Positions 1,453 through 63,405 of a stretch of DNA of 64,000 bases are shown piece by piece. The stretch's first letter is position 1. Every line of letters starts with the position of its first letter. Under the pieces are notes generated by a model, which saw only the letters and a list, made by a program, of their open reading frames with translations, was not told where the DNA came from and searched no databases. The position numbers and the translations under genes were made by a program. Source of the stretch: Bacteroidota bacterium (GTDB lineage: Bacteria > Bacteroidota > Bacteroidia > Bacteroidales > JACABE01); assembly GCA_026391675.1 (NCBI GenBank), contig JAPLDQ010000004.1, positions 1 to 64,000 of the forward strand. The letters are read 5' to 3'.

Positions 1453-1887
1453 ATGAAAACATTTGAAATCAAACTTAAGAAAGGTCTGGGAGAAATCAGC
1501 TTCGGAGATGCTCCCGAAAAGGTGATGACCGTCCTGGGCGATCCCCAGGAGGTGGAAAACCTGGAAATGGACGAGGATAACGTCACCATCATTTCCCATT
1601 ACCTGGATAAGGACCTGGCCCTCTTCTTTATCAACTCGCGCAAGCCCTGCCTCGAATGCATAGAGTCGAGCAACCGCGATACCACCCTCTTCGGAAAAAA
1701 GGTCTTCCTCATGAACGAATGCGAAATCATCGACCTCATGCGTCAGAACGGCTTCGAAACCCACGAGATAGAAGACGAAATCTGGGGCGAAAAACGCCTC
1801 ACCTTCGAAGATGCCATGATAGATTTCTACTTCGACGACAAGCAGCTGTCGGTCATCAGCTGGGGGGTGCTTGTTGATGAGCTCTGA
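1453..1887 (+). CDS. Conserved-looking 144-aa protein of unknown function
   Basis: I do not recognise the family. The protein is soluble, acidic and has no signal peptide or membrane segment. The N-terminus has KGLGEISFGDAPEKVMTVLG then DP, a G-x-I-x-FG-x4-V-x3-LG-x-P pattern also seen in small BamE/PepSY-like or immunity-type modules; this is only a resemblance. The middle carries alternating hydrophobic/charged stretches compatible with an alpha-beta fold. The start is supported by TTGGAGAA just upstream. Codon use is very C-ending (CTC, ATC, TTC, GCC), the most GC-rich of any gene here, which supports a real, translated gene and perhaps a different history from the AT-rich genes to the right. 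The reverse-strand frame over it is a shadow. Confidence 0.7.
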   Translation: MKTFEIKLKKGLGEISFGDAPEKVMTVLGDPQEVENLEMDEDNVTIISHYLDKDLALFFINSRKPCLECIESSNRDTTLFGKKVFLMNECEIIDLMRQNGFETHEIEDEIWGEKRLTFEDAMIDFYFDDKQLSVISWGVLVDEL

Positions 1888-2699
1888 GTTCGCACTGAGG
1901 GGTGGTTGAGCGGAGTCGAAACCACATGCCAAGAGCAACTGCGCTTCGACTTGTTTCGGCTTCGCTCAACAAACATCGCTCATCGCCCGATGAACTGTAT
2001 AGGTTATCAATCTATTGTTGATTGAGTGAAGACAATGTAAGTCGAAACCACATGCCACGAGCAACTGCACTTCGACTTGTTTCGGCTTTGCTCAACAACC
2101 ACCGCTCAGCGCCCTATGAACATTGGTCGTAATATCAAATCACAAAATCTCCTTAATGATTCTAAGTGTCCTTAGTGCCTTAGTGGTAAAAAAGTACCTG
2201 GAGTAATTATAATACTTAAAGTTGAAACAAGCGCTGACTTATCAGCGTAAATCAGCAAAAATCCGTTTAATCTGTGTGCTATTTTTCATATGTCTCTACG
2301 AACGTCAATTAATCTTAGTGTCCTTAGTGCCTTAGTGGTAAAAAAGGCATTAGGCAATAGTAAGGGGTACATTACAAATAATCAGGAAGATAATTTCCTG
2401 ATTCCTAATTCCAGATTCCTGATTTCTAATGAGATGCTTCCTTCGTCAGCATGACAAAACAGTCATTTCAGCGTAAATCAGCATAAAAAAGATATCATCT
2501 AATTACACGAATTTAACGAATATTTTAAAACTCAACGTTACTTCAATTTTTATTCGTTAAATTAGATTAATTCGATGAAAAAAAACATTTTATATGATGT
2601 TGTAATTTTCCCTAACAGCCTAACAGTCTAACAGTCTAAATACTTATCACCATTACCGCATCACCGCATCACCGTATTATCGCATCAAAAATTCATAAT
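1888..2699. repeat. Gene-free repeat mosaic
   Basis: No gene in 812 bases. Recognisable pieces in order: two REP-like inverted repeats of the TTGAGCGGAGTCGAAACCAC / TTCGGCTTCGCTCAAC class (about 1898-1985 and 2040-2125); two copies of a CTTAGTGTCCTTAGTGCC-TTAGTGGTAAAA phrase (about 2160-2192 and 2310-2345); AGCGTAAATCAGCA phrases (2238-2260, 2470-2486); a TTCCTGATTCCTAATTCC array (2390-2430); GAGATGCTTCCTTCGTCAGC (2429-2448); CTAACAGTCTAACAG heptamers (2613-2638); CACCGCATCACCGTATT units (2649-2687); and ATTCATA units to the end of mnmD. I see no promoter, tRNA or terminator. Confidence 0.8.
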
Positions 2700-3377
2700 T
2701 CATAATTCATAATTTTTTGACGCTCTGATAATATGCCTTTTCCCCACCGGTCCGTCCAATAACTCCACCTTAAACCCTGCAGCCAGTAACGCTCTTTTTA
2801 CACTGCCTTTGGCGGAGTATGTCGTAAGGATGGAATTGGGTTTCATGGCCTTGTATAATTTATGAAAGATGGCTTCTTCCCAGAGTTCGGGCTGTATGGC
2901 CGGCGAAAAAGCATCGAAATAAACCAGGTCATACGATGCATCTGCCAAAACTACATCCTCCAGCCTGGCATTCAGCTTCTGTAAAATAAAGACTTCGGAA
3001 ATATAGCGGGGGATATTGGCGGGGACTTCGTGCATCCTGATAAAGACAGGCTGTAGCTCATCCTGCCTGAGCAGGGCAGCATAATTCAATTGTGTATAAA
3101 TGCTTTCGTCCAGCAGCACCGTCTCTATACCGACATAGTTGATCTTCAGCCCCTTTAAAAGGCTTTCTCTAAAGGTCAGCAGGGCATTGAGGCCGGTCCC
3201 GAAACCCACTTCCAAAATGTTGATGTTCTTTTTATCCGCCACCTGCTGTAGTCCGGCCTTTATAAATATATGCTCCGATTCCTGTATCGCCCCGTGGGAG
3301 GAATGGTAATGCTCACCGTAAGTTTCGCTGTAGAGGGTCGGGGAACCGTCGGCGGTGGGGGTAAGGAGGATGGTCAT
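2700..3377 (-). CDS. mnmD: MnmD: tRNA 5-(aminomethyl)uridine methyltransferase
   Basis: Stand-alone 225-aa homologue of the methyltransferase half of MnmC. It would use S-adenosylmethionine to finish the methylaminomethyl group on U34 of certain tRNAs, after MnmE/MnmG. The SAM-binding motif VGFGTGLN is at residues 57-64, YFDAFSP with the family Asp at 153-159, and GPVGKRHIIR near the C-terminus (209-218). The FAD oxidase half of MnmC is absent, as is usual outside gammaproteobacteria. The last codons (AAT TAT GAA TTA TGA) lie inside an ATTATGA repeat array, so the C-terminal NYEL and the stop codon are repeat-derived. CATAACTCATAACTC repeats precede the start. Confidence 0.9.
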   Translation of the reverse strand: MTILLTPTADGSPTLYSETYGEHYHSSHGAIQESEHIFIKAGLQQVADKKNINILEVGFGTGLNALLTFRESLLKGLKINYVGIETVLLDESIYTQLNYAALLRQDELQPVFIRMHEVPANIPRYISEVFILQKLNARLEDVVLADASYDLVYFDAFSPAIQPELWEEAIFHKLYKAMKPNSILTTYSAKGSVKRALLAAGFKVELLDGPVGKRHIIRASKNYEL

Positions 3378-3841
3378 TATGAGTTATGAGTTATGAATTA
3401 TAAATTATGAATGAAATTAGTAATTAGCAATGAGCAATGAGTAATGAACTGCTTCGTGTATTAGCTGTTAGCACTAACGGGTGGTTGAGCGGCGGTTACT
3501 GAGCGGAGACGAAGTAAGTCGAAACCACAAGCCAAAAGCAACTGCACTTCAACTTGTTTCTGCTTCGCTCAACAACCACTGCTCAGTGCCCGGCTAGCGT
3601 TCTAACGGGTGGTTGAGCGGAGTCGAAACCACAAGCTACGAAGCACTAATGTTTGTTTCAATGCATTCAACTGCACTTCGACACCATTTCGACTCCGCTC
3701 AATGATCGTCTCAGTGCCCGATAAACATTGTCCGAACATCAATCGCCAAATCACCAAATTATCTTCAAATATAAAAAAATATTCCCGTAATGACGAACTA
3801 AAACGATAATATATTACTTTTATAGTCTAAAATTACTAACT
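3378..3841. repeat. Repeat cluster between mnmD and the exonuclease
   Basis: 464 bases without a gene. TTATGAG/AATTATG units and AGCAATGAG units (3378-3450) lie upstream of mnmD. Two REP-like composites follow at about 3478-3600 and 3604-3735. Each contains TTGAGCGG-AGTCGAAACCAC, a CAACTGCACTTCGAC core, and an inverted GCTCAACAACCAC or GACTCCGCTCAATG arm. The last 100 bases are AT-rich with AATATATTACTTTTATAG before the next start; TATTACTTTTATAG resembles a -7 region but lacks the final G. Confidence 0.75.
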
Positions 3842-4564
3842 ATGCTCGAAAACATTATTTTACCGAGGGTACTTTTTCTGGATATAGAAACGGTTCCTCT
3901 GCATGCCTCCTATCATCAGCTGGATGACAGATTCAAAAAACTCTGGGATAAAAAGGCCGCCCTTCTCACTAAGTCCGAAACGGATCCCGTTGCTGCTACT
4001 TCACCTGAATCGGTCTATGAAAGAGCCGGCATCTATGCCGAGTTCGGCAAAATTATCTGCATCTCTACCGGATACATCAAGGACGGTGGTTTCAGGATTA
4101 AATCCTTTTATGGCGACGACGAAAAGCAGCTGCTCACAGACTTTGCAGCCCTGCTGACGACGCATTTCAACACAGTGAATCATTACCTCTGTGCCCATAA
4201 CGGCAAGGAGTTTGATTATCCTTTCATTGCCCGGCGCATGCTGGTGAATGGCATCAAATTGCCCATGCTCCTCAATATTGCCGGCAAAAAGCCTTGGGAA
4301 ATCACCCACCTGGATACCATGGAATTATGGAAGTTCGGCGATTACAAGAACTATACCTCACTGGAACTGCTTGCAGCCCTCTTCGGCATTCCCACACCCA
4401 AGAACGACATCGACGGCAGCCAGGTAAGAAGGGTCTATTACGAAGAAAAAGACCTCAACCGCATTGTAGAATACTGCCAGAAAGACACCCTTACCGTTGC
4501 CCAATTATTATTATGCTATATGGGAGAGGAGATGATAGGGGATGATGAGGTGGTGGTGGTTTAA
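3842..4564 (+). CDS. DEDDy-type 3'-5' exonuclease (PolB-like RNase H fold)
   Basis: 240-aa predicted 3'-5' exonuclease of the family resembling the proofreading domain of family B polymerases. Exo I is D14-I-E16, Exo II has HN at 119-120 and FD at 124-125, and Exo III is Y211CQKD215, which places it in the DEDDy class. There is no polymerase domain. Role is probably DNA trimming or repair; the exact substrate is unknown. The C-terminus GDDEVVVV is encoded by GTGGTGGTGGTT, a small simple repeat that leads straight into the TAA. GC-rich codon usage matches the genes before it. Start ATG at 3842 follows AATTACTAACT with no obvious Shine-Dalgarno, normal for this phylum. Confidence 0.88.
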   Translation: MLENIILPRVLFLDIETVPLHASYHQLDDRFKKLWDKKAALLTKSETDPVAATSPESVYERAGIYAEFGKIICISTGYIKDGGFRIKSFYGDDEKQLLTDFAALLTTHFNTVNHYLCAHNGKEFDYPFIARRMLVNGIKLPMLLNIAGKKPWEITHLDTMELWKFGDYKNYTSLELLAALFGIPTPKNDIDGSQVRRVYYEEKDLNRIVEYCQKDTLTVAQLLLCYMGEEMIGDDEVVVV

Positions 4565-4594
4565 TACGGTTGTTTTGGTGATGCTGTGAAGCTC

Positions 4595-4682
4595 TTTGGG
4601 CGCTGAGACAATCATTGAGCGGAGTCGAAGTAAGTCGAAACCACAAGCCACAAAGAAATAAACTGCAATTCGAACCCACTTC
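4595..4682. repeat. REP-like repeat upstream of the GIY-YIG gene
   Basis: CGCTGAGACAATCATTGAGC, then GGAGTCGAAGTAAGTCGAAACCAC and a degenerate right arm CTGCAATTCGAAC. Same class as the copies at 3.5-3.7 kb and 5.0-5.5 kb. It ends 26 bases before the GIY-YIG start. Confidence 0.75.
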
Positions 4683-4708
4683 ATCAATACAAAATAATTA
4701 TATTTCAT

Positions 4709-5017
4709 ATGAAAGGTTATGTATATATATTGCTATGTTCTAACGGACAGTTCTATACCGGTAGCACAATAAATTTAGAAAAAAGAATAGAACAGCATCA
4801 ATGCGGTGAAGGTTCAAATTTTACAAAAAAACATTTGCCTGTAATACTCGTGTTTTATGAGGAATTTCAAAATATAAGAGATGCTTTTTACAAAGAGAAA
4901 CAAATTCAGGGATGGAGCAGAAAAAAGAAAGAAGCATTAATCAATGGTAATTATAACAATCTGATTGATTTAGCTGCATGTAAAAATGCTTCGCATTTCA
5001 GAAATATTAAAAAATAA
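4709..5017 (+). CDS. GIY-YIG nuclease family protein (UPF0213/URI type)
   Basis: Small 102-aa single-domain endonuclease-like protein. The GIY-YIG signature appears as YVYIL (4-8) and FYTGST (15-20), with the conserved Arg in LEKRIEQH (23-30) and the later E/K-rich helix FYKEKQIQGWSRKKKEALI. Such stand-alone proteins have no settled biological role. The gene is AT-rich and differs in composition from the upstream neighbours. It is framed on both sides by REP-like TCGACTCCGCTCAA repeats (4595-4682 and 5045-5465), a context I recall as frequent for this family in Bacteroidota but cannot verify here. It has no operon partner. Confidence 0.88.
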   Translation: MKGYVYILLCSNGQFYTGSTINLEKRIEQHQCGEGSNFTKKHLPVILVFYEEFQNIRDAFYKEKQIQGWSRKKKEALINGNYNNLIDLAACKNASHFRNIKK

Positions 5018-5750
5018 GTACAAATCATAATTGACTTATATCAACTACGCTTCGACTTACTCGGAAATTTTCAACTGCACTTCGACTCCACTTCGACTCC
5101 ACTTCGACTCCATTTCGACTACGCTCAATGATCGTCTCAATGATCGTCTCAGTGCCCAAAAAGCAGTCTGCCTGGTGCTTGAGCGGCGGTTAGAGTTAGG
5201 CTCTGCCTGGTGGTTGAGCGGCGGTTGTTGAGCGGAGACGAAATAAGTCGAAACCACAAGCCAAAAGCACTTCTTTATTTATAAATTCACAACTGCACTT
5301 CGACTCCGCTCAGTGCCCGGAAAACAGTCTGCCTGGTGCTTGAGCGGCGGTTATTGAGCGGAGACGAAATAAGTCGAAACCACAAGCCACAAACAACTAC
5401 ACTTCGACTTGTTTCGGCATCGCTCAACAACCACCGCTCTGCGTCCGATGAACTGTGTAGGTAAATGATATATTGAAAGATTGAATTTAAGGAATTAACC
5501 ACTAAGGCACTAAGGACACTTAGAATCACTAAGGCTTTTATTCTAATTTAATACTAAATTCTTCTTAGTGCAACTTAGTGCTCTTAGTGTCTTAGTGGTA
5601 AAATCTTTTATCATTCTGAATGTATGCGAAGAATCTCCTTCAATTGCTAATTCCTAATTCCAGATTCCAGATTCCTAATTCAAAATAAAAAAAGGCAGAA
5701 ACCAGAATTCTACCTTCTGCCTTCTGCCTTCTTATTTCAACCTTCTGCCT
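5018..5750. repeat. Dense REP-like cluster and CTTAGTG inverted repeat
   Basis: 733 bases without a gene. 5045-5265: REP-like composite including a 12-bp direct tandem ACTTCGACTCC-type unit (about three copies at 5078-5115), duplicated ATGATCGTCTCA, and two TTGAGCGGCGGTT arms. 5290-5465: a second composite with the same elements, sharing GCAGTCTGCCTGGTGCTTGA. 5497-5605: a large inverted repeat, ACCACTAAGGCACTAAGGAC against CTTAGTGTCTTAGTGGT. 5610-5640: TCATTCTGAATGTATGCGAA-type phrase. 5645-5685: TTCCTAATTCCAGA units. 5690-5757: CCTTCTGCCTT units that run into the peptidase stop. Confidence 0.8.
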
Positions 5751-11009: not shown

Positions 11010-11546
11010 ATGAACAGAACATCACAGGAATTTGAAGTTGTTATAAAAAAATGCCGCGAAGTTTTCGAGGCAAAGATGAAGGACTATGGCAGTGCATGGC
11101 GTATTTTAAGAACGCCCTCCCTCACCGACCAAATTTATATCAAGGCCAGCCGCATCAGAAGTATCGATGATAAAGGCGCACAAAAGGTAGATGAAGGCAT
11201 AGTGCCGGAATTTATCGGCATGGTAAATTATTCCGTTATTGCCCTCATTCAGCTGGAGATGGGCACTGAACAAAACCTCGATTTATCGGTTGATGAAGCT
11301 ATGAAATATTTTGATACCTATATTTATACGGCCAAGGCACTGATGGAAGATAAGAACCACGATTACGGCGAAGCCTGGCGCAATATGCGTATCAGCTCGC
11401 TGACCGATATTATCTTAATGAAATTATTGCGGATAAAACAGATTGAAGACAACAAAGGCATGACTTTTGTGTCGGAAGGTGTGGATGCCAATTATATGGA
11501 TATTATTAATTATGCGGTTTTCGCACTTATTAAGCTCGGAAATTAG
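11010..11546 (+). CDS. DUF1599 / Nmad1 family protein, internally duplicated
   Basis: 178 aa, cytoplasmic. Two tandem copies of one module are plain by eye: KDYGSAWR (24-31) ... SLTD ... SRIRSIDD ... EGIVPEFIGMVNYSVIALIQL, and HDYGEAWR (117-124) ... SLTD ... LRIKQIED ... EGVDANYMDIINYAVFALIKL. This is the DUF1599 fold, also named nucleotide modification associated domain 1 and related to MazG-like all-alpha NTP pyrophosphatases; a nucleotide-related role is family-level inference. In Bacteroidota this gene commonly sits between folP and a BT_3928-like DoxX gene, as here. The TAG stop opens an array of TTATTAGG/TTATTAAG units. Confidence 0.9.
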   Translation: MNRTSQEFEVVIKKCREVFEAKMKDYGSAWRILRTPSLTDQIYIKASRIRSIDDKGAQKVDEGIVPEFIGMVNYSVIALIQLEMGTEQNLDLSVDEAMKYFDTYIYTAKALMEDKNHDYGEAWRNMRISSLTDIILMKLLRIKQIEDNKGMTFVSEGVDANYMDIINYAVFALIKLGN

Positions 11547-11748
11547 TTATTAGGTTATTAAGTTATTAAGTTAATGAAGCTAAAGAATAAGTTATTAGGT
11601 TATTAAGTTAATGAGGCCTCAACGTAATTTAACTTGTACAACTCATAATTTATTTTTTATAACCAATAACCCAATAACCCAATAACTCAATAACTCGATA
11701 ACTCAATAACCCAATAACTTAATAACTTAATAACCAATAACTAACAAA
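11547..11748. repeat. Inverted pair of 8-bp arrays between Nmad1 and DoxX genes
   Basis: From the Nmad1 stop the + strand reads GTTATTAGGTTATTAAG repeats (11547-11612). Approaching the DoxX start it reads the complement, AATAACCCAATAACTCAATA and so on (11660-11740), about nine 8-bp units. The two halves could pair into a long imperfect hairpin in the transcript or in single-stranded DNA. Confidence 0.9.
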
Positions 11749-12873
11749 ATGAAGACATTATCAACCATCAGCCGAATATTGGTAGGTCTGGTATTTATTT
11801 TTTCCGGCTTCGTTAAGGGTGTTGACCCGCTGGGAACAGCCTACCGCATTGTTGATTATTTTGAAGCCTATCATATCACCTGGGCCAATCCCTTATCGCT
11901 TTACCTTTCGGTATTGCTGTGTACCCTGGAGTTCACGCTCGGTGTGCTCCTCATAATGAATGTGAAGATGAAACTCACTTCATGGCTCACCTTATTGCTG
12001 ATGATCTATTTTACCATCGTCACCTTTTTTGATGCCCTATACAGTCCGGTGCCGGATTGTGGTTGCTTTGGCGATGCCGTTAAACTGACCAACTGGCAGA
12101 CATTTTACAAGAATATCGTCCTTATGGTTTTTGTTATCCTTATTTTTAAGGACAGAAAACGGATGTCAGCATTCTGGTCTGCAAAGAAGGAAGCACTCGT
12201 TATACTCGCTGTTGTTGTTTTATTTGGCGGCTTCAGCATATACAATTACAGAAACCTGCCCCTTATCAATTTCCGTCCGTGGAAAGTCGGCAATAAAATG
12301 ATGTCTGATAATCCCCAACCATCCAAATTCTACCTGACCTATAAGAACAAAAAAACAGGCGAAAGCAAGGAATATCTTTCCAATCAGTTGCCATGGCAGG
12401 ATACCGTTTGGGCTGCCAACTGGGTATTTGTTAGCACCCGCGAAGAAAATCCAAACAAATCTAAACTAGGCTCCTTTGCCATTATCGATTCTGCCGGTAC
12501 TGATTATACAGACCATTTTGTTCGGAATACAGAATTTCAGTTTTTTGTTGCTTCCTATGATTTAAACACAGCCAATAAGGAAGCATTTGAAAAGATAAAG
12601 GCATTTTACGAAAAAGCCAAAGCTAAAAATGTTTCCGTCATTGTATTAACAGGCTCTTCTCCTCAGGATATTGCAAAGTTCAAAAAGGAAATGGATACAA
12701 AGGAAATGGAATTTTACCTGGCAGACGATATTTCGTTAAAAGCCATGATACGTTCCAATCCGGGACTGATGCTGCTTAAAAAGGCAGTTGTGTTGGGTCA
12801 GTGGCACTGGCGTAATTTCCCTGAATATGATGAAAACAATTGGAATACGCTGGCAAAAAAATACATTAAATAA
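11749..12873 (+). CDS. BT_3928-like protein: DoxX/MauE membrane domain plus thioredoxin-like tail
   Basis: 374 aa. The N-terminal half has five hydrophobic segments (about 9-23, 48-70, 78-98, 121-133, 149-161) with the DoxX/MauE features FSGFVKGVDPLGTAYR and DCGCFGDA (103-110). The C-terminal half (about 200-374) looks like a thioredoxin fold without a CxxC: FFVASYDLNTANKEAFEKI, VSVIVLTGSSPQDIAKFK, GLMLLKKAVVLGQWHWRN. An envelope redox or electron-transfer-coupled role is a family-level guess only. The usual neighbour triosephosphate isomerase is missing here; MoxR follows 55 nt downstream. Confidence 0.85.
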   Translation: MKTLSTISRILVGLVFIFSGFVKGVDPLGTAYRIVDYFEAYHITWANPLSLYLSVLLCTLEFTLGVLLIMNVKMKLTSWLTLLLMIYFTIVTFFDALYSPVPDCGCFGDAVKLTNWQTFYKNIVLMVFVILIFKDRKRMSAFWSAKKEALVILAVVVLFGGFSIYNYRNLPLINFRPWKVGNKMMSDNPQPSKFYLTYKNKKTGESKEYLSNQLPWQDTVWAANWVFVSTREENPNKSKLGSFAIIDSAGTDYTDHFVRNTEFQFFVASYDLNTANKEAFEKIKAFYEKAKAKNVSVIVLTGSSPQDIAKFKKEMDTKEMEFYLADDISLKAMIRSNPGLMLLKKAVVLGQWHWRNFPEYDENNWNTLAKKYIK

Positions 12874-13891: not shown

Positions 13892-14711
13892 TTAGTTATT
13901 TAGTTATAATTAGGAAACTGGAATTAGGAATTAGGAAAAAGTAAGCAGTAACCAGAGGTACATCTCATGATTTTTAAATTTTCTTAGTGTAACTTAGTGC
14001 TCTTGTTGCCTTAGTGGTGAGAAGAAAAGTGCCTTGAGTACTTAGAGTTGAAACCAGACCTGAAATATCAGCGTTAATCAGTTAAATCTGTGTTATACTG
14101 CGTGCTATTTTTTAAAATTGAGATGCTTCTCTCGCCAGAGTCGAGATCAGCATGACAAGAAATGAATAACAGTCCAATTTTGCTCCTTTGTTGTTCCAAA
14201 CGATAGGATTTAGGAATCAGAAAACAGAAATTAGGTTATTGAGTTATTAATGTAATTCAATCTGAACAACTTATTGCAAATTACTAATTGCTCATTGCTA
14301 ATAACCCAATATGTAGGAAAAACACCTTAAACGAAACTGCTAAATTATAATTTAAAACGGAATCTTAAAATTAACAGGACGCACCAATGGTGCTTGGCTT
14401 TGTAGCATAATATTTATTATTAACAGTATGCTACTACGTAGCAAAAGGACAGACTTTTAATAGAGCAAAGTATATCCTGTCAATATTGCTATTTACTTAA
14501 AATAAGTTTAAAAATCATGATCATAAATCGCTCGTAAATTGAAACCAATACTAGTTTGAGTTATAAGAGAATGCTTAAGTCCGTAGGACTTTACTGTTAA
14601 TAACAATCAACAATATCAACAATTAAGCTGCAGCGCAGCGTACTGTCTTATTACTGTTATATTAAAACAGTCAAAGCTATTCAGACATTTCTAATCTTAT
14701 ATTTCACATTG
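13892..14711. repeat. Gene-free repeat mosaic between MoxR and porin
   Basis: 820 bases. TTAGTTA and GGAATTAGG arrays at 13892-13938, a CTTAGTG phrase at 13984-14016, GATGCTTCTC-type phrase at 14121-14157, GCTCATTGC units near 14285, then hairpins GCACCAATGGTGC (14381-14393), TGCTACTACGTAGCA (14430-14444), and a perfect AAGTCC-GTA-GGACTT (14577-14591), and a palindromic GCTGCAGCGCAGC near 14627. No gene, RNA or promoter recognised. Confidence 0.75.
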
Positions 14712-16654: not shown

Positions 16655-16796
16655 AATCCCATAGAGATAAAATCTAGGCAGAAAAAATATGCCCTGCTTT
16701 TTTATGTCCCGTAGGTATATAATAATATACAGGTATTCTATATATTAAAATTATATTAACAGTACAATAATGATTCCTGATTCCTACCTTTATTTA

Positions 16797-16990
16797 TAAC
16801 TCAATAACTCAATAACTCAATAACCTAATAACTTAATAACCTAATAACTCAATAACCTAATAACTCAATAACCTAATAACTTAATAACTTAATAACTTAA
16901 TAACCTAATAACTTAATAACCTAATAACCTAATAACCTAATAACTCAATAACCTAATAACTTATTAACTTAATAACTTAAAACTCATAAC
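16797..16990. repeat. Long 8-bp tandem array TAACYYAA
   Basis: About 23 consecutive octamers of TAACTCAA, TAACCTAA and TAACTTAA on the + strand. They start after TTTAT and run to the 3' end of the LKR-like gene. Only two positions of the unit vary (T/C and C/T). On the minus strand, the coding strand of the neighbouring genes, it reads TTARGTTA and starts at the LKR stop codon. The region 16655-16796 holds only hairpin remnants and TTCCTGA units. Confidence 0.95.
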
Positions 16991-16992
16991 TC

Positions 16993-18306
16993 CTAACTCC
17001 CCAAATACTCCTCCAGGTATTCATATTCATGCGTTAACTCACCTTTGTGCAATATCAATGCTTTTTTCAGGGATTTTGGTAAATCCAGGTCTTCAAAAGG
17101 CAGGTCGTAATCAGCAAAAACGATGGGTTTTATAAAATTTACCAGTGCATCGGCAAAACCGTCAGATGAATCGCGGGGTAATTCGCTGGGTAGAATATCA
17201 ACGGCCATATCCAGTATGCCCTCACCTTCAAAACCGAAAGTATTCTGTTTAGTAAGTGGATTATAAACAAAAACCGGGTCTTCAATAACAGTACCGTGAT
17301 TGGTGCATTCCACACTACCATTGGCATCGCAGGTAATATCCCCGATAACTGTTAGTTTTGGATTTCCTTTACTGTAAAGCTTTTCAAGATAATCCAGGCT
17401 TATTAGCCTCGGATAACGGACATCCCAGTACATGCAGTTCATTAAAACCGATAAATGCGGTATGTATTGTTCAAAAACACTTTCGTAATGCTGAGGATTA
17501 TTGTAGTAATCGTATAAATCAAATTCAACGCTTTTATCTTGGTGTGCTGATAAATGTTTTTCCTTGAAAATTACCTTATAAATGATATTGCTTGGCAAAT
17601 CGTGACGACCATCAAGTTCCACCAATTTTTCTGTAGATATTTCTTTGATGGGTAATAGCCCGCAAATTTCCTGAACGCCCAGGGAAACATTTCCATAGCC
17701 GGTAATTCCGATTACCAGCGGTTGTATTTCTTTTGGAAGCCCTTTTTCGGCAATTTTCTGTCCTACACAACTTACGGCATCTTTAGCTTCTTTTAAAGAA
17801 TTATAATGATGGGCCTGTTTTATATGCAAAAAAGGTGTGTCAAATCCAAAGTATTTCAGACGCTGACCCAAAGCCCAGAATGAATTGATCATACCGGCCA
17901 GCCCGGCATACCTGCCGAAAAAGATAAGTCTTTTGTTTTGTTCGTCAACAATACGTTCATAATCAATAAGGTTACAGCCCAGTTCCATCATTCTTCTGAG
18001 CATTGGCATATTATAGGGTTGACCTTTTATTACATGCGAAAAGAAAACATAGGTTTTGCCGGCTTCAAAAAAATCAAGCGGCATTTCTTTAACACCGAGT
18101 ATGACGTTACATTTTTTTAAATCGTTTTCAACCAATGCACCTGCATTTAAATATTCCTGATCGCTGAATATTCTTTTGGCAGAAGACTGAACGATAAAAT
18201 CCAGTTTCTGATGTTCGATTAAGCGTTTTACGTGTTTGGGTGTTAGTGGAGCCCTGCGCTCCATAACGTATTTGTCCTCATGCCGGATACCGATATAATT
18301 ACTCAT
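16993..18306 (-). CDS. LKR/saccharopine dehydrogenase-type NAD(P) oxidoreductase
   Basis: 437 aa. The N-terminal half resembles alanine dehydrogenase/PNT and lysine-ketoglutarate reductase: IGIRHEDKYVMERRAPLTP (4-22), FSDQEYLNAGA, YVFFSHVIKGQPYNMPMLR. The central IGITGYGNVSLGVQEI is a Rossmann dinucleotide motif. CDANGSVECT follows, as in the AASS N-terminal domain. Such genes are annotated in Bacteroidota as the LKR half of the saccharopine pathway (lysine catabolism or formation), but the true substrate is unproven. It stands alone. The stop codon TAG is the first triplet of TAGGAGTTATGAG, the start of the repeat array. Confidence 0.85.
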   Translation of the reverse strand: MSNYIGIRHEDKYVMERRAPLTPKHVKRLIEHQKLDFIVQSSAKRIFSDQEYLNAGALVENDLKKCNVILGVKEMPLDFFEAGKTYVFFSHVIKGQPYNMPMLRRMMELGCNLIDYERIVDEQNKRLIFFGRYAGLAGMINSFWALGQRLKYFGFDTPFLHIKQAHHYNSLKEAKDAVSCVGQKIAEKGLPKEIQPLVIGITGYGNVSLGVQEICGLLPIKEISTEKLVELDGRHDLPSNIIYKVIFKEKHLSAHQDKSVEFDLYDYYNNPQHYESVFEQYIPHLSVLMNCMYWDVRYPRLISLDYLEKLYSKGNPKLTVIGDITCDANGSVECTNHGTVIEDPVFVYNPLTKQNTFGFEGEGILDMAVDILPSELPRDSSDGFADALVNFIKPIVFADYDLPFEDLDLPKSLKKALILHKGELTHEYEYLEEYLGS

Positions 18307-18930
18307 AATCTTTAGTTAATGGCTGTTTTTGCTCTTTAGTGAATTGCAAATTTATAAAATTACTATCAATTTATAGCTGTATTTATGATTATTTAATGAT
18401 TGAAGAGGAATCAAATAGCAATTGGCAATGAGCAATGAGTAATGAGCAATTAGTAATTAGCAATGAGCAATCTGGAAATTAATAGCTGCTGTTCATTTCT
18501 TGTCATGCTGAGTATTCATATTTTGTTAACACATAAAGATTAATGACAAATTTATTTAATCATTGCTTTCTCAATCTCTGCGGTTCTTTGCGCCTTCTTT
18601 GCGAATCTTTGCGTTAAAAAAAGTTTAACCGCAGAGAGCTGCAAAGATTAAAGAATCATACATTTTAGACTTTAATGATTTGTTTTTTATATATACTTAA
18701 AAATCAACAATAAACAAAACTTGTCATTGTTAACGGAGTGAAGCAATGTCTTTTAATCAGCAATTAGTATTGTAGTCCGCTTATAATAATTTAAAAATAT
18801 GGAGCAAGAATATTTTATTATGTTCTTATGGAACATTAATAAAGAAGGCGCTAATTTTTTTTCCTGCCAATATTATATCCTTTAATGCAATATCATTCAT
18901 TAATTTAAGGATTTATTTAATAAATTCATT

Positions 18931-19139
18931 TGCCCGATAGGGCATAAATATCAATAGAAAATTATTTGTATCCTTTTATTGATTGTCCGTAGGACATATA
19001 CCTTATAAAAAAGAAGATATTTTGTTAATTTTCTATGGAAAATTATGGAAAGAGTCAGCTGAATTTTCTATTGATATTAATCTCCTACGGAGAAAATCTC
19101 ATAATGTAATGATATTATCCGATTGTCCCGTTAGGGACA
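18931..19139. repeat. Four-hairpin module, inverted relative to 56.46-56.62 kb
   Basis: Hairpins in order: TGCCC-GATA-GGGCA (18931-18944), TGTCC-GTA-GGACA (18984-18996), AATTTTC-TATG-GAAAATT (19027-19044), TCTCC-TAC-GGAGA (19081-19093), then TGTCCC-GTTA-GGGACA (19124-19139). ATATCAATAGAAAA follows the first, and its complement precedes the fourth. The module at 56461-56620 has the same four types in the opposite order. Confidence 0.9.
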
Positions 19140-19476
19140 TGATAAAGTTTAACCGGAATAGACAGGTATTCGTAATTCGTAATTTTTAATTCGTAATTGA
19201 TATTTTTGTAGCGTATAGGATTTGAGGCCGGTCCGGCTTTGTTGTGTTATGAATACTTAAAATGCTGAGTTTTGTAATGTTAAATATCCAATTCGTAAGA
19301 AAAATATAAAATTAATTAGTTTTTTAGTGTTTTTATCGAAATAATAAATAAGTAAAAAATAGTGTAACTTATTGGCTTTTAAAAATATAAATTTGAATTT
19401 GTAAATTTAAAAAACGAAAAATAAATAAAATTATAAGAATTAAAATTTAAATTAAAAAAATACAAAAATTTTGGAT

Positions 19477-28564: not shown

Positions 28565-28865
28565 ATCTTTTTATCAGATAAATAATATTTTTATAGCAAT
28601 TTATGAGTTAAAAAGGTCAACGCTATTCAGGCATCAACAATTCATAATTCATAACCATTGTTGTCCGGTTAAAATAATTTTAATGTAAAGAACACCCATA
28701 TTTTATTATGTCCCTACGGGACATTAAAAAAGCAGGGTTTATTTTTTTCTACCAACATTTTATCCCTACGGGATTGTCCCGTTAGGGACATGATATTGAT
28801 AGAATGCATGTTATAATAAAATCTAAACGTCCCGTTAGGGACTTATAATTCATAACTCATAATTT
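28565..28865. repeat. Convergent intergenic region with a four-hairpin module
   Basis: ATGTCCC-TAC-GGGACAT (28708-28724), ATCCC-TAC-GGGAT (28762-28774), TGTCCC-GTTA-GGGACA (28775-28790) and GTCCC-GTTA-GGGAC (28829-28842). TTTCTACCAACAT after the first and ATATTGATAGAAT before the last are the same spacer elements as in the transposase locus at 43-44 kb. ATTCATA units flank both ends. Confidence 0.88.
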
Positions 28866-29525
28866 CTAGCTTACCGCAATATTCATGTAATTATTCAACG
28901 GATACATCGCTTTAAAAACTTTTAATGTATAGTTGTAGAAATCTGCTTTTTGCATTTCCTCATCTGTTATTGAATGAATTACAGTATAATTCTTGTATTT
29001 TAACAGATCAATATCCGGAAAATCTTTTGGAAAGTCTTTAGGCGGATTTTTTAATTTATCATCATCCCATATTTCATTAAAATATTTTTTAAAATCAGCT
29101 GCAGTAATGATTTTTTTAAAATTATCAGCATTAAAGTAAATTTCATTTCTTATCAACTTGAGTTTATCAGCCGGTGGCATATAAATTCCTCCTGCCAGAA
29201 AAGATTTACCGGGTTCTATATGCAGATAGTATCCGGCATTCATGGCTTTACGGCCACCTTTAGCCATAAATCCGCCAATATTGGTCTTGTAAGGTGATTT
29301 ATCGTTGGAAAACCTTACATCCCGGTTAATACGGAACAAACAATCTTTTGGATTAATCCCGATAAAGGTTTGGTCAAATGCCTGTATCCCTGAAATTACT
29401 TCCTTTATAAAGTTTTCAACCAATGTTTTGGCTTCTTCATGCCTTCTTTTATTAAGCAGAAACCATTCTCTGTTATTATTTACAGTGAGTTCCTGTAAAA
29501 ATTGAAATACTTGTTTTGGTATCAT
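28866..29525 (-). CDS. DUF2461 family protein
   Basis: 219 aa, matching the DUF2461 family (TIGR02453): NNNREWFLLNKRRHEEA (17-33), DCLFRINRDVRFSNDKSPYK then TNIGGF, GYYLHIEPGKSFLAGGIYMP. Cytoplasmic, function unknown. Stop TAG three nt before ATTATGAG repeats. The gene lies 52 nt downstream of prmC on the same strand, and likely shares its transcript. Confidence 0.93.
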   Translation of the reverse strand: MIPKQVFQFLQELTVNNNREWFLLNKRRHEEAKTLVENFIKEVISGIQAFDQTFIGINPKDCLFRINRDVRFSNDKSPYKTNIGGFMAKGGRKAMNAGYYLHIEPGKSFLAGGIYMPPADKLKLIRNEIYFNADNFKKIITAADFKKYFNEIWDDDKLKNPPKDFPKDFPDIDLLKYKNYTVIHSITDEEMQKADFYNYTLKVFKAMYPLNNYMNIAVS

Positions 29526-42904: not shown

Positions 42905-42923
42905 TGTTTATATATATTATGTT

Positions 42924-43113
42924 TCGCTCCTGTGGAGCGATTTTCCAAAATTACAATTTTTCTACCAACTTCAAACTCCTAACGGAGTTTTATAATAATG
43001 TTTGCATACAACAAAATTAAATTAATTAATAGTTTTTAATTTTCAAGATTCCATGGGAAATAAATGTTGGTAGAAAATAAAAGAATAATTGTTTTTTTGC
43101 TCCGTTAGGAACG
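42924..43113. repeat. Hairpin module on the 3' side of the Y1 transposase gene
   Basis: TCGCTCC-TGT-GGAGCGA (42924-42940), TTTTCTACCAACTTC spacer, AAACTCC-TAAC-GGAGTTT (42973-42990), imperfect ATTCC-ATG-GGAAA (43048-43060), TGTTGGTAGAAAA spacer, and decayed GCTCC-GTTA-GGAACG (43099-43113). Outer hairpins and spacers are arranged as a large inverted repeat. Confidence 0.9.
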
Positions 43114-43131
43114 AGATGTTCTTATTGATTA

Positions 43132-43593
43132 TTAATAAAAAAAATCGAATAAATATTTTTCTTCATATTCAATTTCAAATTTCTCCAAAATATTTAAATA
43201 TTCTTCTTTAAAGTTAAGCTTTTTATGATGTTTTTCTTGATTTAAAATGTAATTGATAACATTATCTCTTTGTGAACGACTATAAGAGAATGCACCAAAT
43301 CCTTCCTGCCAGTTAAACTTAATTTCAGATAGTTTATTTTCATTAATATGTCTTGATGATTCAGATTTTATTTCTCTTACTAAATCTGATAAACTTGTTG
43401 ATGGTGAAAGACCAATTAATATATGAATATGGTCTGGCATTGCGTTTATTGCCAGAAGCTTCTGTTTTTGATTTGTAATTATTCCCGTTATGTATTTATG
43501 TAATTGTTCGCGGAAAGATTTGGTAATAAGTGCATTCCGATTTTTTACGGAAAAGATTAAATGGATTGTAATTTGTGTAAATGTATTGGGCAT
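43132..43593 (-). CDS. IS200/RAYT-like Y1 (HUH) transposase
   Basis: 153 aa, single-domain Y1 transposase. HUH metal motif H55-I-H57 in MPDHIHIL, catalytic Tyr115 in VINYILNQ with Gln119 four residues later (the third metal ligand spacing of IS608 TnpA). All catalytic residues are present and the frame is intact. There is no TnpB. The flanks carry repeated hairpins rather than a single left/right end pair, which is the arrangement of REP-associated transposases (RAYTs). It is AT-rich. Whether it moves itself or only the hairpin modules cannot be told from one locus. Confidence 0.93.
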   Translation of the reverse strand: MPNTFTQITIHLIFSVKNRNALITKSFREQLHKYITGIITNQKQKLLAINAMPDHIHILIGLSPSTSLSDLVREIKSESSRHINENKLSEIKFNWQEGFGAFSYSRSQRDNVINYILNQEKHHKKLNFKEEYLNILEKFEIEYEEKYLFDFFY

Positions 43594-43621
43594 TTTTAAA
43601 TAATAAATTGGTTACTATTTA

Positions 43622-44226
43622 TTGTCTCGCTCCAATGTAGCGAAATATCAGATTTTACCATTTTTCTATCAACATCAAACTCCTAACGGAGTTTTGATAA
43701 TAAATTGTTGATTTAACAAAACAAAATTAATAGTTTTTATTATAATATTTTAATGCCATATTTCATTAAAATGTATAAGTCAAATTTTCTATAAATACCT
43801 ATAGATTAATAGAATTTAGTAATAGTTTTTGTATCCATTTAAATAATATTTTTCTTTTTTTCTTAAAGATTCCATAGGAATCAAATGTTGGTATAAAATA
43901 GTATTGGACATTTTTAAATAATAAATTGGTTAATGTTTTTTGTCTCGCTCCTATGGAGCGAAATATCAGATTTTACCATTTTTCTACCAACATCAAACTC
44001 CTGACGGAGTTTTAATAATAAATTATATATTCAACAAAATAAAATTGTTTAACTTGCTAATTACCATTCTTCTATAATATCAAACTCTTCCGAAGTTTTT
44101 GTGATAATTTTTGTATTTAACAAAATTAAATTACTTAATTGCTTTTTTATTTTTGGATTCCATAGGAATCAAATGTTGGTAGAAAATAAAAGAATAATTG
44201 TTTTTCGCTCCGTTAGGAGCGAGACC
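43622..44226. repeat. Hairpin modules on the 5' side of the Y1 transposase gene
   Basis: Decayed CGCTCC-AAT-GTAGCG (43629-43642), AAACTCC-TAAC-GGAGTTT (43677-43694), GATTCC-ATA-GGAATC (43868-43882) with TGTTGGTATAAAA after it, then a full module: TCGCTCC-TAT-GGAGCGA (43945-43961), AAACTCC-TGAC-GGAGTTT (43995-44012), GATTCC-ATA-GGAATC (44156-44170), TGTTGGTAGAAAA, TCGCTCC-GTTA-GGAGCGA (44205-44222). The two parts look like tandem module copies, the first with internal decay; no gene is present. Confidence 0.92.
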
Positions 44227-44246
44227 TATTTTAAATTCAATTCTTT

Positions 44247-56351: not shown

Positions 56352-56460
56352 GAAGTATTAATGCGGTGATGCGGTAATTTGGTGATGTGCTGATTTTGCT
56401 ATTGGTTAATGATTATTAAGTCTGAAAACTTGTCGGGTAATGTCATTAAGTTAAAGAAAT

Positions 56461-56620
56461 TTCTCCGTAGGAGAATAATATCAATAGAAAATATAGCAGG
56501 CTCTTTCCCTTATTTTCCTTAGGAAATTAACAAAATTTCATGTTTATACGAAGGTTTATGTCCTACGGACAAGCAATAAAAGATACTTAATTTTTTATTG
56601 ATATTTATGCCCTACGGGCA
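56461..56620. repeat. Four-hairpin module
   Basis: TTCTCC-GTA-GGAGAA (56461-56475), ATATCAATAGAAAA, TTTCC-TTA-GGAAA (56514-56526), TGTCC-TAC-GGACA (56559-56571), TTATTGATATTTA, TGCCC-TAC-GGGCA (56608-56620). Same four types as at 18.93-19.09 kb, in inverse order and orientation. Confidence 0.92.
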
Positions 56621-56745
56621 AACGGATTTATTAAAATATAACATGAACATAATGACATTGCCTGTCGGGTACTAATTTCCATAAGGCATATTTTACTGAT
56701 TTATTGAAAAATCAGTATTGCATGCTTGCAAACTCTCTGCAAAGG

Positions 56746-57028: not shown

Positions 57029-57389
57029 GTCATATTAATCTCGCTATTAGCGGAGAAACATCTTATAGATATTGAATTCTTTATTCTATTGAGATTCTTC
57101 ACTAGCGTTACTAATGACAAGTTTGTTTTTTGTTGATTTTTAAGTATATATAAGAAACATGACAATGAAATTAAAACTAGTTGATTCTTTAATCTTTGCG
57201 GTTCTCCGCGTAAAACTCCGCGGCACTCTGCGGTTAAACTTTTTTACCGCTGAGAGCTGCAAAGAAGGCGCAAAGCGATGTAGTGAGCTTGTCGAACTGT
57301 GCCGCAGAGATTGAGAAAGCAATGATTTTATATTTTTGTCAGCGTACCTTCAAGCATTTTTCTAAATGTTAAAACTCAGAATGACAAAA
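57029..57389. repeat. MITE-like composite repeat, copy 2
   Basis: From 57102 nearly identical to 63043-63311, except for an extra stretch of about 27 bases containing GTGAGCTTGTCGAACTG. Ends carry TTTTGTCAT and ATGACAAAA in inverse orientation. The centre is the TTTGCGGTTCTCCGCG / CGCGGCACTCTGCGGTT fold. Confidence 0.85.
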
Positions 57390-57540
57390 GTAACGATATT
57401 GATGATAATGTTTGCAGCTTTTATAATGTACTGTCTTCATACTTTAACATTCGTTAATCGTTAATCGCATTTTTTTTGATTTGAGAATAACGATTAACGA
57501 TTTAGGATTTTAGATGTTAATCCGGTTCAATTTCTTCTAA

Positions 57541-62998: not shown

Positions 62999-63311
62999 TT
63001 TGTCATGCTGACGAAGGAAGCATCTCATTTAATTTTATGAGATTCCTCACTTCGTTACTAATGACAAGTTTTTTTTTGTTGATTTTTAAGTATATATAAG
63101 AAACATGACAATGAAATTAAAACTAGTTGATTCTTTAATCTTTGCGGTTCTCCGCGTAAAAACTCCGCGGCACTCTGCGGTTAAACTTTTTTACCGCTGA
63201 GAGCCGCAAAGAAGACGCAAAGGAACGCAGAGATTGGGAAAGCAATGATTTTATATTTTTGTCAGCGTACCTTCAAGCATTTTTTTAAATGTTAAAACTC
63301 GGAATGACAAA
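62999..63311. repeat. MITE-like composite repeat, copy 3
   Basis: About 312 bp. Left end TTTGTCATGCTGA and right end (complement) TTTGTCATTCCGA are 13-base inverted termini with two mismatches. The interior holds TTTTTAAGTATATATAAG, a TTTGCGGTTCTCCGCG fold and TTTTTGTCAGCGTACCTTC. A near-identical copy lies at 57.1-57.4 kb in the same orientation, and a diverged inverse one at 18.5-18.76 kb. The rest of 62951-63405 is AT-rich and empty. Confidence 0.85.
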
Positions 63312-63405
63312 ACTAATATTTGTTATATTAAATAATTTATTCTATTTCACTGGGTTTTGAGTATAATGTATTTTAAATTTTTACAATCTATTCTAAACTA
63401 AAATC

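Follow-up and report, generated by a model that had tools for sequence, protein, structure and literature searches.

A gene for a Y1 (HUH) transposase in a 64,000-nucleotide stretch of a Bacteroidota genome (assembly GCA_026391675.1, contig JAPLDQ010000004.1, positions 1 to 64,000 of the forward strand; hereafter the window) lies between small hairpins, and what is really repeated is a pair of hairpins in direct orientation, the X-Y doublet, with a constant distance between the two. We consider it probable that Y1 transposases of subclass 1.2 recognize and cleave such doublets as their cognate substrates, and that both jointly form a system resembling repetitive extragenic palindromes (REPs) and REPINs (REP doublets forming hairpins). 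When subclass 1.2 was set up in 2018, this Y1 group had neither insertion sequence (IS) nor REP properties and no known role (PMC6006769). The present reading would provide it with a predicted substrate and a geometry, along with a specificity code open to experimental test.

Hairpin doublets at the Y1 gene

Read outward from the gene, the unit consists of a foot, hairpin X, approx. 20 nt, the motif TTTTCTAY, approx. 9 nt ending in the foot, and hairpin Y. The foot, 4 nt long, is common to hairpins X and Y, which are direct repeats with an X-to-Y interval of approx. 37 nt and a hairpin period of about 50 nt. TCTAY is nearly invariant and is located approx. 10–14 nt 5′ of each Y hairpin. The original prediction, made from the letters of the window, had described modules of four hairpins around a gene without simple ends of its own. 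The hairpins it named (TCGCTCC, AAACTCC and GATTCC) and the inverted spacers TTTCTACCAACA / TGTTGGTAGAAAA were found where it had placed them, and the hairpin-spacer-hairpin unit is significant by a covariance model, R1, which scores five doublets in the area of the gene with E-values of 2e-4 to 1e-7 (42918+, 43044−, 43621+, 43939+ and 44153−). The spacer motif alone is not significant (15 matches in the window at up to two mismatches vs. 9.9 expected). While the predicted hairpins are real, the repeat unit is the direct doublet, and what had been taken as a module is two inverted doublets. The statement on absent ends is only half right, since the doublets point outward on both sides and provide the gene with mirror-image ends, Y′-X′-gene-X-Y (43047–43694).

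Downstream of the gene, a doublet on the minus strand covers 43044..43120 (R1 44.2 bits; Y′ GATTCCATGGGAA at 43047–43061, spacer TGTTGGTAGAAAA, X′ GCTCC-GTTA-GGAAC at about 43097–43114). The upstream doublet (43621..43696, plus strand, 30.8 bits) starts with a decayed X (TCGCTCC-AAT-GTAGCGA, 43627–43643), followed by TTTTTCTATCAACATC and Y (43677–43694). Three further doublets are found at 42918..42992 (plus strand, 36.1 bits; X TCGCTCC-TGT-GGAGCGA at 42924–42940, TTTTTCTACCAACTTC, Y AAACTCC-TAAC-GGAGTTT at 42973–42990), 43939..44014 (plus strand, 41.4 bits; X TCGCTCC-TAT-GGAGCGA at 43945–43961, Y AAACTCC-TGAC-GGAGTTT at 43995–44012) and 44153..44228 (minus strand, 45.6 bits; Y′ GATTCC-ATA-GGAATC at 44156–44170, X′ TTTCGCTCC-GTTA-GGAGCGAGA at 44203–44224). 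A half doublet at 43868..43944 (no strand assigned; 21.7 bits, partial) contains Y′ GATTCC-ATA-GGAATC (43868–43882) and the spacer, with hairpin X′ being replaced by a remnant of the gene's 5′ end (agtattggaCATttttaaat); 43895–44046 aligns with 43578–43728. The middle module, already recognized as decayed in the prediction, thus ends in a piece of the gene.

Doublets beside homologues in other genomes

The flanks of 54 loci, comprising the window gene and 53 homologues in the source and related genomes, contain 81 strict hairpins in 40.7 kb vs. 8.4 in shuffled sequences, which makes them about ten times commoner. Hairpins were paired without imposing any motif or spacing except a broad range of 12–75 nt, and the first two hairpins of a flank were 34–41 nt apart in 35 of 45 cases. 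At 80 loci from named organisms, 77 hairpin gaps measured 34–41 nt, 14 measured 10–33 nt and 27 measured 42–79 nt; a correctly oriented hairpin doublet was present on at least one side of 58 of these loci.

R1 was built from 21 units, 20 of which originate from other genomes. Applied to the 80 named loci, which contain at least one R1 training locus (L143), the model detected 206 units at E-values below 0.01. When the unit closest to the gene was taken on each flank, up to a distance of 150 nt, it pointed outward for 43 of 45 flanks upstream and for 45 of 52 downstream (88 of 97 overall), and unit density is 3.07 per kb up to 300 nt from the gene vs. 0.35 per kb farther out. The training units had been picked for hairpins, gap and spacer similarity, so that the pairing within the training alignment (A2) is partly due to selection. 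The stems co-vary: in 150 R1 units from other loci, 338 stem cells were changed on both sides, a value reached by none of 500 shuffles.

Across 98 relatives, at least five R1 units were found in 31 of 50 genomes with a homologue vs. 4 of 48 without one (odds ratio 18, P = 1.6e-8); the P-value is nominal, as units were counted up to 49 per genome and the genomes are related. Unit number also follows gene number (Spearman 0.67).

A close homologue occurs in 100 of 395 sampled genomes of the phylum, i.e., about a quarter, and the host range includes Flavobacterium, Chryseobacterium, Chitinophaga, Pedobacter, Hymenobacter, Ignavibacteria, Verrucomicrobiia, Desulfonema and others. Named genomes carry from 3 to more than 140 R1 units each, the upper value being that of Desulfonema magnum, in which one hairpin is repeated in tandem arrays with a period of 49–51 nt on both sides of the gene. 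Long tandem arrays of hairpin units with a period of approx. 51 nt were also observed in this organism (NZ_CP061800) at about 3465–3469 kb and 3028 kb.

Hairpin feet and residue 42

The feet are variable between loci (TTTC, TGTC, TGCC, GGTC, TTAA and others), and the feet of one locus tend to agree. X and Y feet of the same flank agree in 90 of 140 cases in the first locus set (61 ± 5 after permutation) and in 147 of 228 cases in a second count (115 ± 5.6 permuted), and upstream and downstream feet agree in 58 of 80 cases (37 ± 3.3 permuted). The strongest link to the protein connects the first foot base (position −4) and residue 42, which lies where the first helix ends: Arg42 is present at 13 of 15 loci with foot G and at none of 58 with T. 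On the tree, all five inferred changes to or from Arg42 fall on foot-changing branches, of which there are seven.

Since this pair was chosen from about 1,800 pairs, it was retested on 48 new loci less than 90% identical to the first set. For the Y foot, G was found with Arg five times and without Arg once, and any other base with Arg once and without Arg 41 times (P = 2e-5). The X foot gave G with Arg and G without Arg five times each, another base with Arg once, and another base without Arg 37 times (P = 8e-4). Within the source genome, paralogue L002 has Arg42 and a G in its modules (the delta family, see below), while the window protein and paralogue L003 have Gln42 and T feet.

The Y1 protein

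The gene is located at 43132..43593 on the minus strand and encodes a protein of 153 amino acids of subclass 1.2 type, containing DHIH, WQ and YILNQEKHH, with Gln as residue 42. It matches the Pfam family Y1_Tnp (PF01797) with an E-value of 1.8e-28; H55, Y115 and Q119 are invariant and H57 is at least 90% conserved in 27 homologues, confirming the Y1 gene with Tyr115, H55-x-H57 and Gln119 as predicted. An AlphaFold2 model (predicted local distance difference test score of 93) is nearest to the TnpA structures of ISDra2, IS608 and Sulfolobus (Z 12–13), followed by the E. coli REP transposase (10.6), and the protein has the HUH-Y1 fold with the H-x-H, Tyr and Gln of IS200/IS605 TnpA.

The original prediction had placed the gene in a system like that of the REP-associated tyrosine transposases (RAYTs). 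What stands of this is the low-copy gene between inverted modules, the dispersed gene-less copies and the tracking of units and genes over the 98 relatives. Membership in the RAYT family itself is not supported: the RAYT motif Y---NP around the catalytic tyrosine was found in 0 of 54 homologues, the NCBIfam profile REP_Tyr_transpos scores 45.2 bits, under its cut-off of 80, and the feet are not GT[AG]G. WQ is present in all 54 and Y---Q--HH in 52 of the 54 homologues, and the NCBIfam IS200 profile scores 79.5 bits (cut-off 55). Its sequence signatures place the window protein among the HUH transposases of Quentin's subclass 1.2 (Y---Q--HH, DHxH/NHxH, WQ, about 148 amino acids).

With four to five copies in the source genome and mostly one to six per genome elsewhere, Y1 genes are low-copy. 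The paralogues of the source genome are single, share 35–55% identity with the window gene, and include no observed pair of identical copies. One homologue (L005, G000:C34:125070-125486; 35% identical) has direct repeats with other hairpins (TTGGCTTTAGCCAA, GACATAAATGTC) on its flanks and is possibly a sister system. In G003, a genome of the same genus, five Y1_Tnp copies agree in both profile score and length of the open frame and appear to represent an ordinary IS200 that is active.

Gene-less modules in the source genome

R1 detects 79 units in 36 clusters in the source genome at E-values up to 1; 37 of 43 pairs of adjacent units are inverted, and for each Y1 gene there are more than ten gene-less units. 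One family, delta (feet AACAGGAC/AACAGTA) occurs in at least 12 dispersed places and matches the array beside paralogue L002 on contig C21. One of these places is a convergent module in the window at 14373..14647 (R1 50.7 + 44.1 bits; feet AACAGGAC / GTACTGT; cognate to L002), which is missing from the gene-less sites listed in the prediction. Delta copies lie in unrelated places, and because the similarity between them stops at the outer foot, without a longer terminal inverted repeat (TIR), delta is a discrete element.

For the sites at 18.9, 28.7 and 56.5 kb, the prediction had claimed the architecture seen at the window gene. The architecture holds, but the hairpin sequences differ, and judging from these the modules probably belong to paralogues. 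Two divergent modules of the gamma family, 18927..19097 (R1 38.9 + 35.4 bits; GCCC / TGTCC / TTTTCC / CTCC hairpins) and 56458..56624 (37.0 + 42.1 bits), match the flanks of L003 and are in opposite register with Y outermost. A compact convergent module of the beta family, 28702..28849 (59.6 + 30.7 bits), is inside an element of about 218 bp with long TIRs (ATCATTGTTGTCCGGTTAAA; 28654–28870), near-identical copies of which are present on contigs C15 (two) and C17. By sequence, this element looks like a DDE-type miniature inverted-repeat transposable element (MITE).

A degenerate copy of the same element was observed at 18769–19160, with the gamma module at 18.9 kb apparently nested inside. A repeat, AATGTCATTAAGTTAA, flanks several gamma modules (window 56435–56665; L007; L012; L110) and is present elsewhere in the genus; it possibly represents the TIRs of another MITE. 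Remnants of gene ends adjoin modules in the window, at L003 and at L064, which indicates rearrangement at these loci.

Comparison with known systems

In the REPtrons of gammaproteobacteria, i.e., TnpA_REP or RAYT with REPs, REPINs and bacterial interspersed mosaic elements, a low-copy Y1 gene likewise lies between inverted hairpin repeats (PMC6006769, PMC8266576); a tetranucleotide-like foot 5′ of each hairpin, dispersed gene-less copies and an own repeat family for each gene are further common traits. In contrast to REPtrons, the window-type protein is of class 1.2 instead of class 2, the feet are variable and differ from GT[AG]G, CTAY is located approx. 10 nt further 5′ of the foot, and the hairpins form direct doublets of approx. 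50-nt period with nearly invariant TCTAY and four different hairpins per module.

Subclass 1.2 TnpA_Y1 proteins were described from Bacteroidetes and Cyanobacteria as low-copy and without REPs (Quentin et al., 2018; PMC6006769). They agree with the proteins studied here in Y---Q--HH, WQ, a length of about 150 amino acids, low copy number, divergent paralogues and occurrence in Bacteroidota. However, the 2018 description has no terminal hairpins, whereas doublets flank most members here, and more phyla are represented. In the open literature, no paper on REPs of subclass 1.2 was found after the 2018 survey, with subscription papers and most preprints being outside the search. IS200/IS605 elements (IS608, ISDra2) are closest in fold and sequence and also have a hairpin with a 5′ tetranucleotide guide. 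Unlike these and canonical IS200 (subclass 1.1; one hairpin per end), the system has no near-identical multicopy genes and two hairpins per side, and gene-less modules outnumber genes. TnpA_REP of subclass 2.6 (Bertels group 5) is found in the same phylum, and its genes likewise have hairpins on their flanks, which are atypical and occur dispersed over the genome (PMC6006769), but that protein is of a different subclass, with NHxH, YIHxNP and 179 amino acids; this comparison covers the proteins.

Proposed mechanism and alternative explanations

Geometry, orientation, dispersal and gene association of the doublets were computed directly, as were the concordance of X and Y feet and the co-variation of foot and residue 42. 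For binding, cleavage at TCTAY and mobilisation in trans we rely on analogy with IS608, ISDra2 and TnpA_REP, in which the cleavage site is selected with the help of a guide tetranucleotide located 5′ of the hairpin; TnpA_REP cuts at CT (PMC8266576). A TnpA dimer would read the foot 5′ of each small hairpin on single-stranded DNA, with residue 42 probably contacting the first foot base and Arg reading G. The cut is predicted at or near TCTAY, the candidate site 5′ of each Y hairpin. Two inverted doublets would form a four-hairpin module movable in trans without its gene, and the gene itself would remain low-copy and locally flanked. Each paralogue would serve its own hairpin family, so that several families could coexist in one genome. 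We lean, by a small degree, towards the wider view of a second, independently evolved REPtron lineage which is based on class-1.2 instead of class-2 Y1 proteins, occurs across Bacteroidota, Verrucomicrobiota, Desulfobacterota and others, and is characterized by doublets phased at 50 nt, mobile modules with four distinct hairpins each, and a foot specificity that can be swapped and depends in part on residue 42.

Several observations weigh against these proposals. The TCGCTCC family, which belongs to the window gene, was found only beside that gene; the predicted action of the window gene in trans on the modules at 18.9, 28.7 and 56.5 kb is therefore weak, and the dispersed families have their counterparts beside other paralogues (delta L002, gamma L003). 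Neither an empty site nor a new insertion or excision was observed; an empty site was sought for one delta copy, which lies on C16 downstream of an mfd-like gene and whose neighbours are not syntenic in genomes of the same genus. Some pairs of foot and residue 42 disagree, and mutual information did not reveal the foot-complementary nucleotide column, with a matching change of the cut site, that would be expected from the guide model of IS608. Some dispersed copies are embedded in TIR elements, and DDE transposases may account for their spread. Modules in many relatives without a Y1 gene, or Y1 genes consistently without hairpins, which had been named in advance as speaking against the prediction, are not the rule. 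Exceptions to the former are G035 and G052, orphan repeat populations in which 14 and 23 units occur although PF01797 genes are absent; exceptions to the latter are five genomes with a close Y1 gene and no R1 unit, in some of which hairpin pairs of other spacing are visible.

The mirror-image ends of the gene, the gene-end remnants beside modules in the window, at L003 and at L064, and the IS200 call of NCBIfam would all fit an ordinary IS200-like IS with the ends Y′-X′ and X-Y, whose gene-less modules are deletion derivatives (like MITEs or palindrome-associated transposable elements) and whose convergent modules are junctions of tandem copies. We regard this as unlikely, given that the paralogues are divergent and single, each with its own hairpin set, that gene-less units are more than tenfold in excess of genes, and that two hairpins at fixed spacing per end with common feet differ from IS200 ends. 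A further reason not to prefer a plain IS with two ends is that convergent modules have a conserved centre in common and disperse as such. Less likely again is a spread of the dispersed modules by DDE-type elements (TIR MITEs), with the Y1 protein being uninvolved in their movement. The beta family and some gamma copies are indeed within TIR elements, and orphan genomes exist, but delta copies end at the foot in at least 12 places, and both the link to the gene at genome level and the match of foot and residue 42 would be left unexplained. A nature of bidirectional transcription terminators, or of other RNA elements accumulated by chance beside Y1 genes, is very improbable for the hairpins. 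They are small, GC-rich, intergenic and often at gene ends, as terminators would be; however, X-Y spacing is fixed, orientation is outward on both sides, a conserved TTTTCTAY is found 5′ of the hairpin instead of a U tract 3′ of it, tandem 50-nt arrays occur, the foot co-varies with the protein, and an Rfam search gave no match except two tRNAs.

If the proposed role of the doublets as substrates of subclass 1.2 transposases is confirmed, transposases of the IS200 type gave rise to REP-like systems on more than one occasion, and an explanation would be at hand for the many intergenic hairpins that abound unexplained in genomes of Bacteroidota and some others. The link between foot and residue 42 bears on how such enzymes choose single-stranded DNA.

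Other repeats in the window

Two direct repeats, each longer than 90 nt and 96–99% identical, lie about 5.9 kb apart (57123–57393 and 63069–63316). Long intergenic arrays of an 8-nt unit (TCAATAAC, CTAATAAC) are present at 11542–11770 and 16745–17004. Finally, the region 1877–5447 contains several minisatellite-like repeats, e.g., five copies of a 113-nt unit, and a related 51-nt family containing GAGCGGAG-CGAA.
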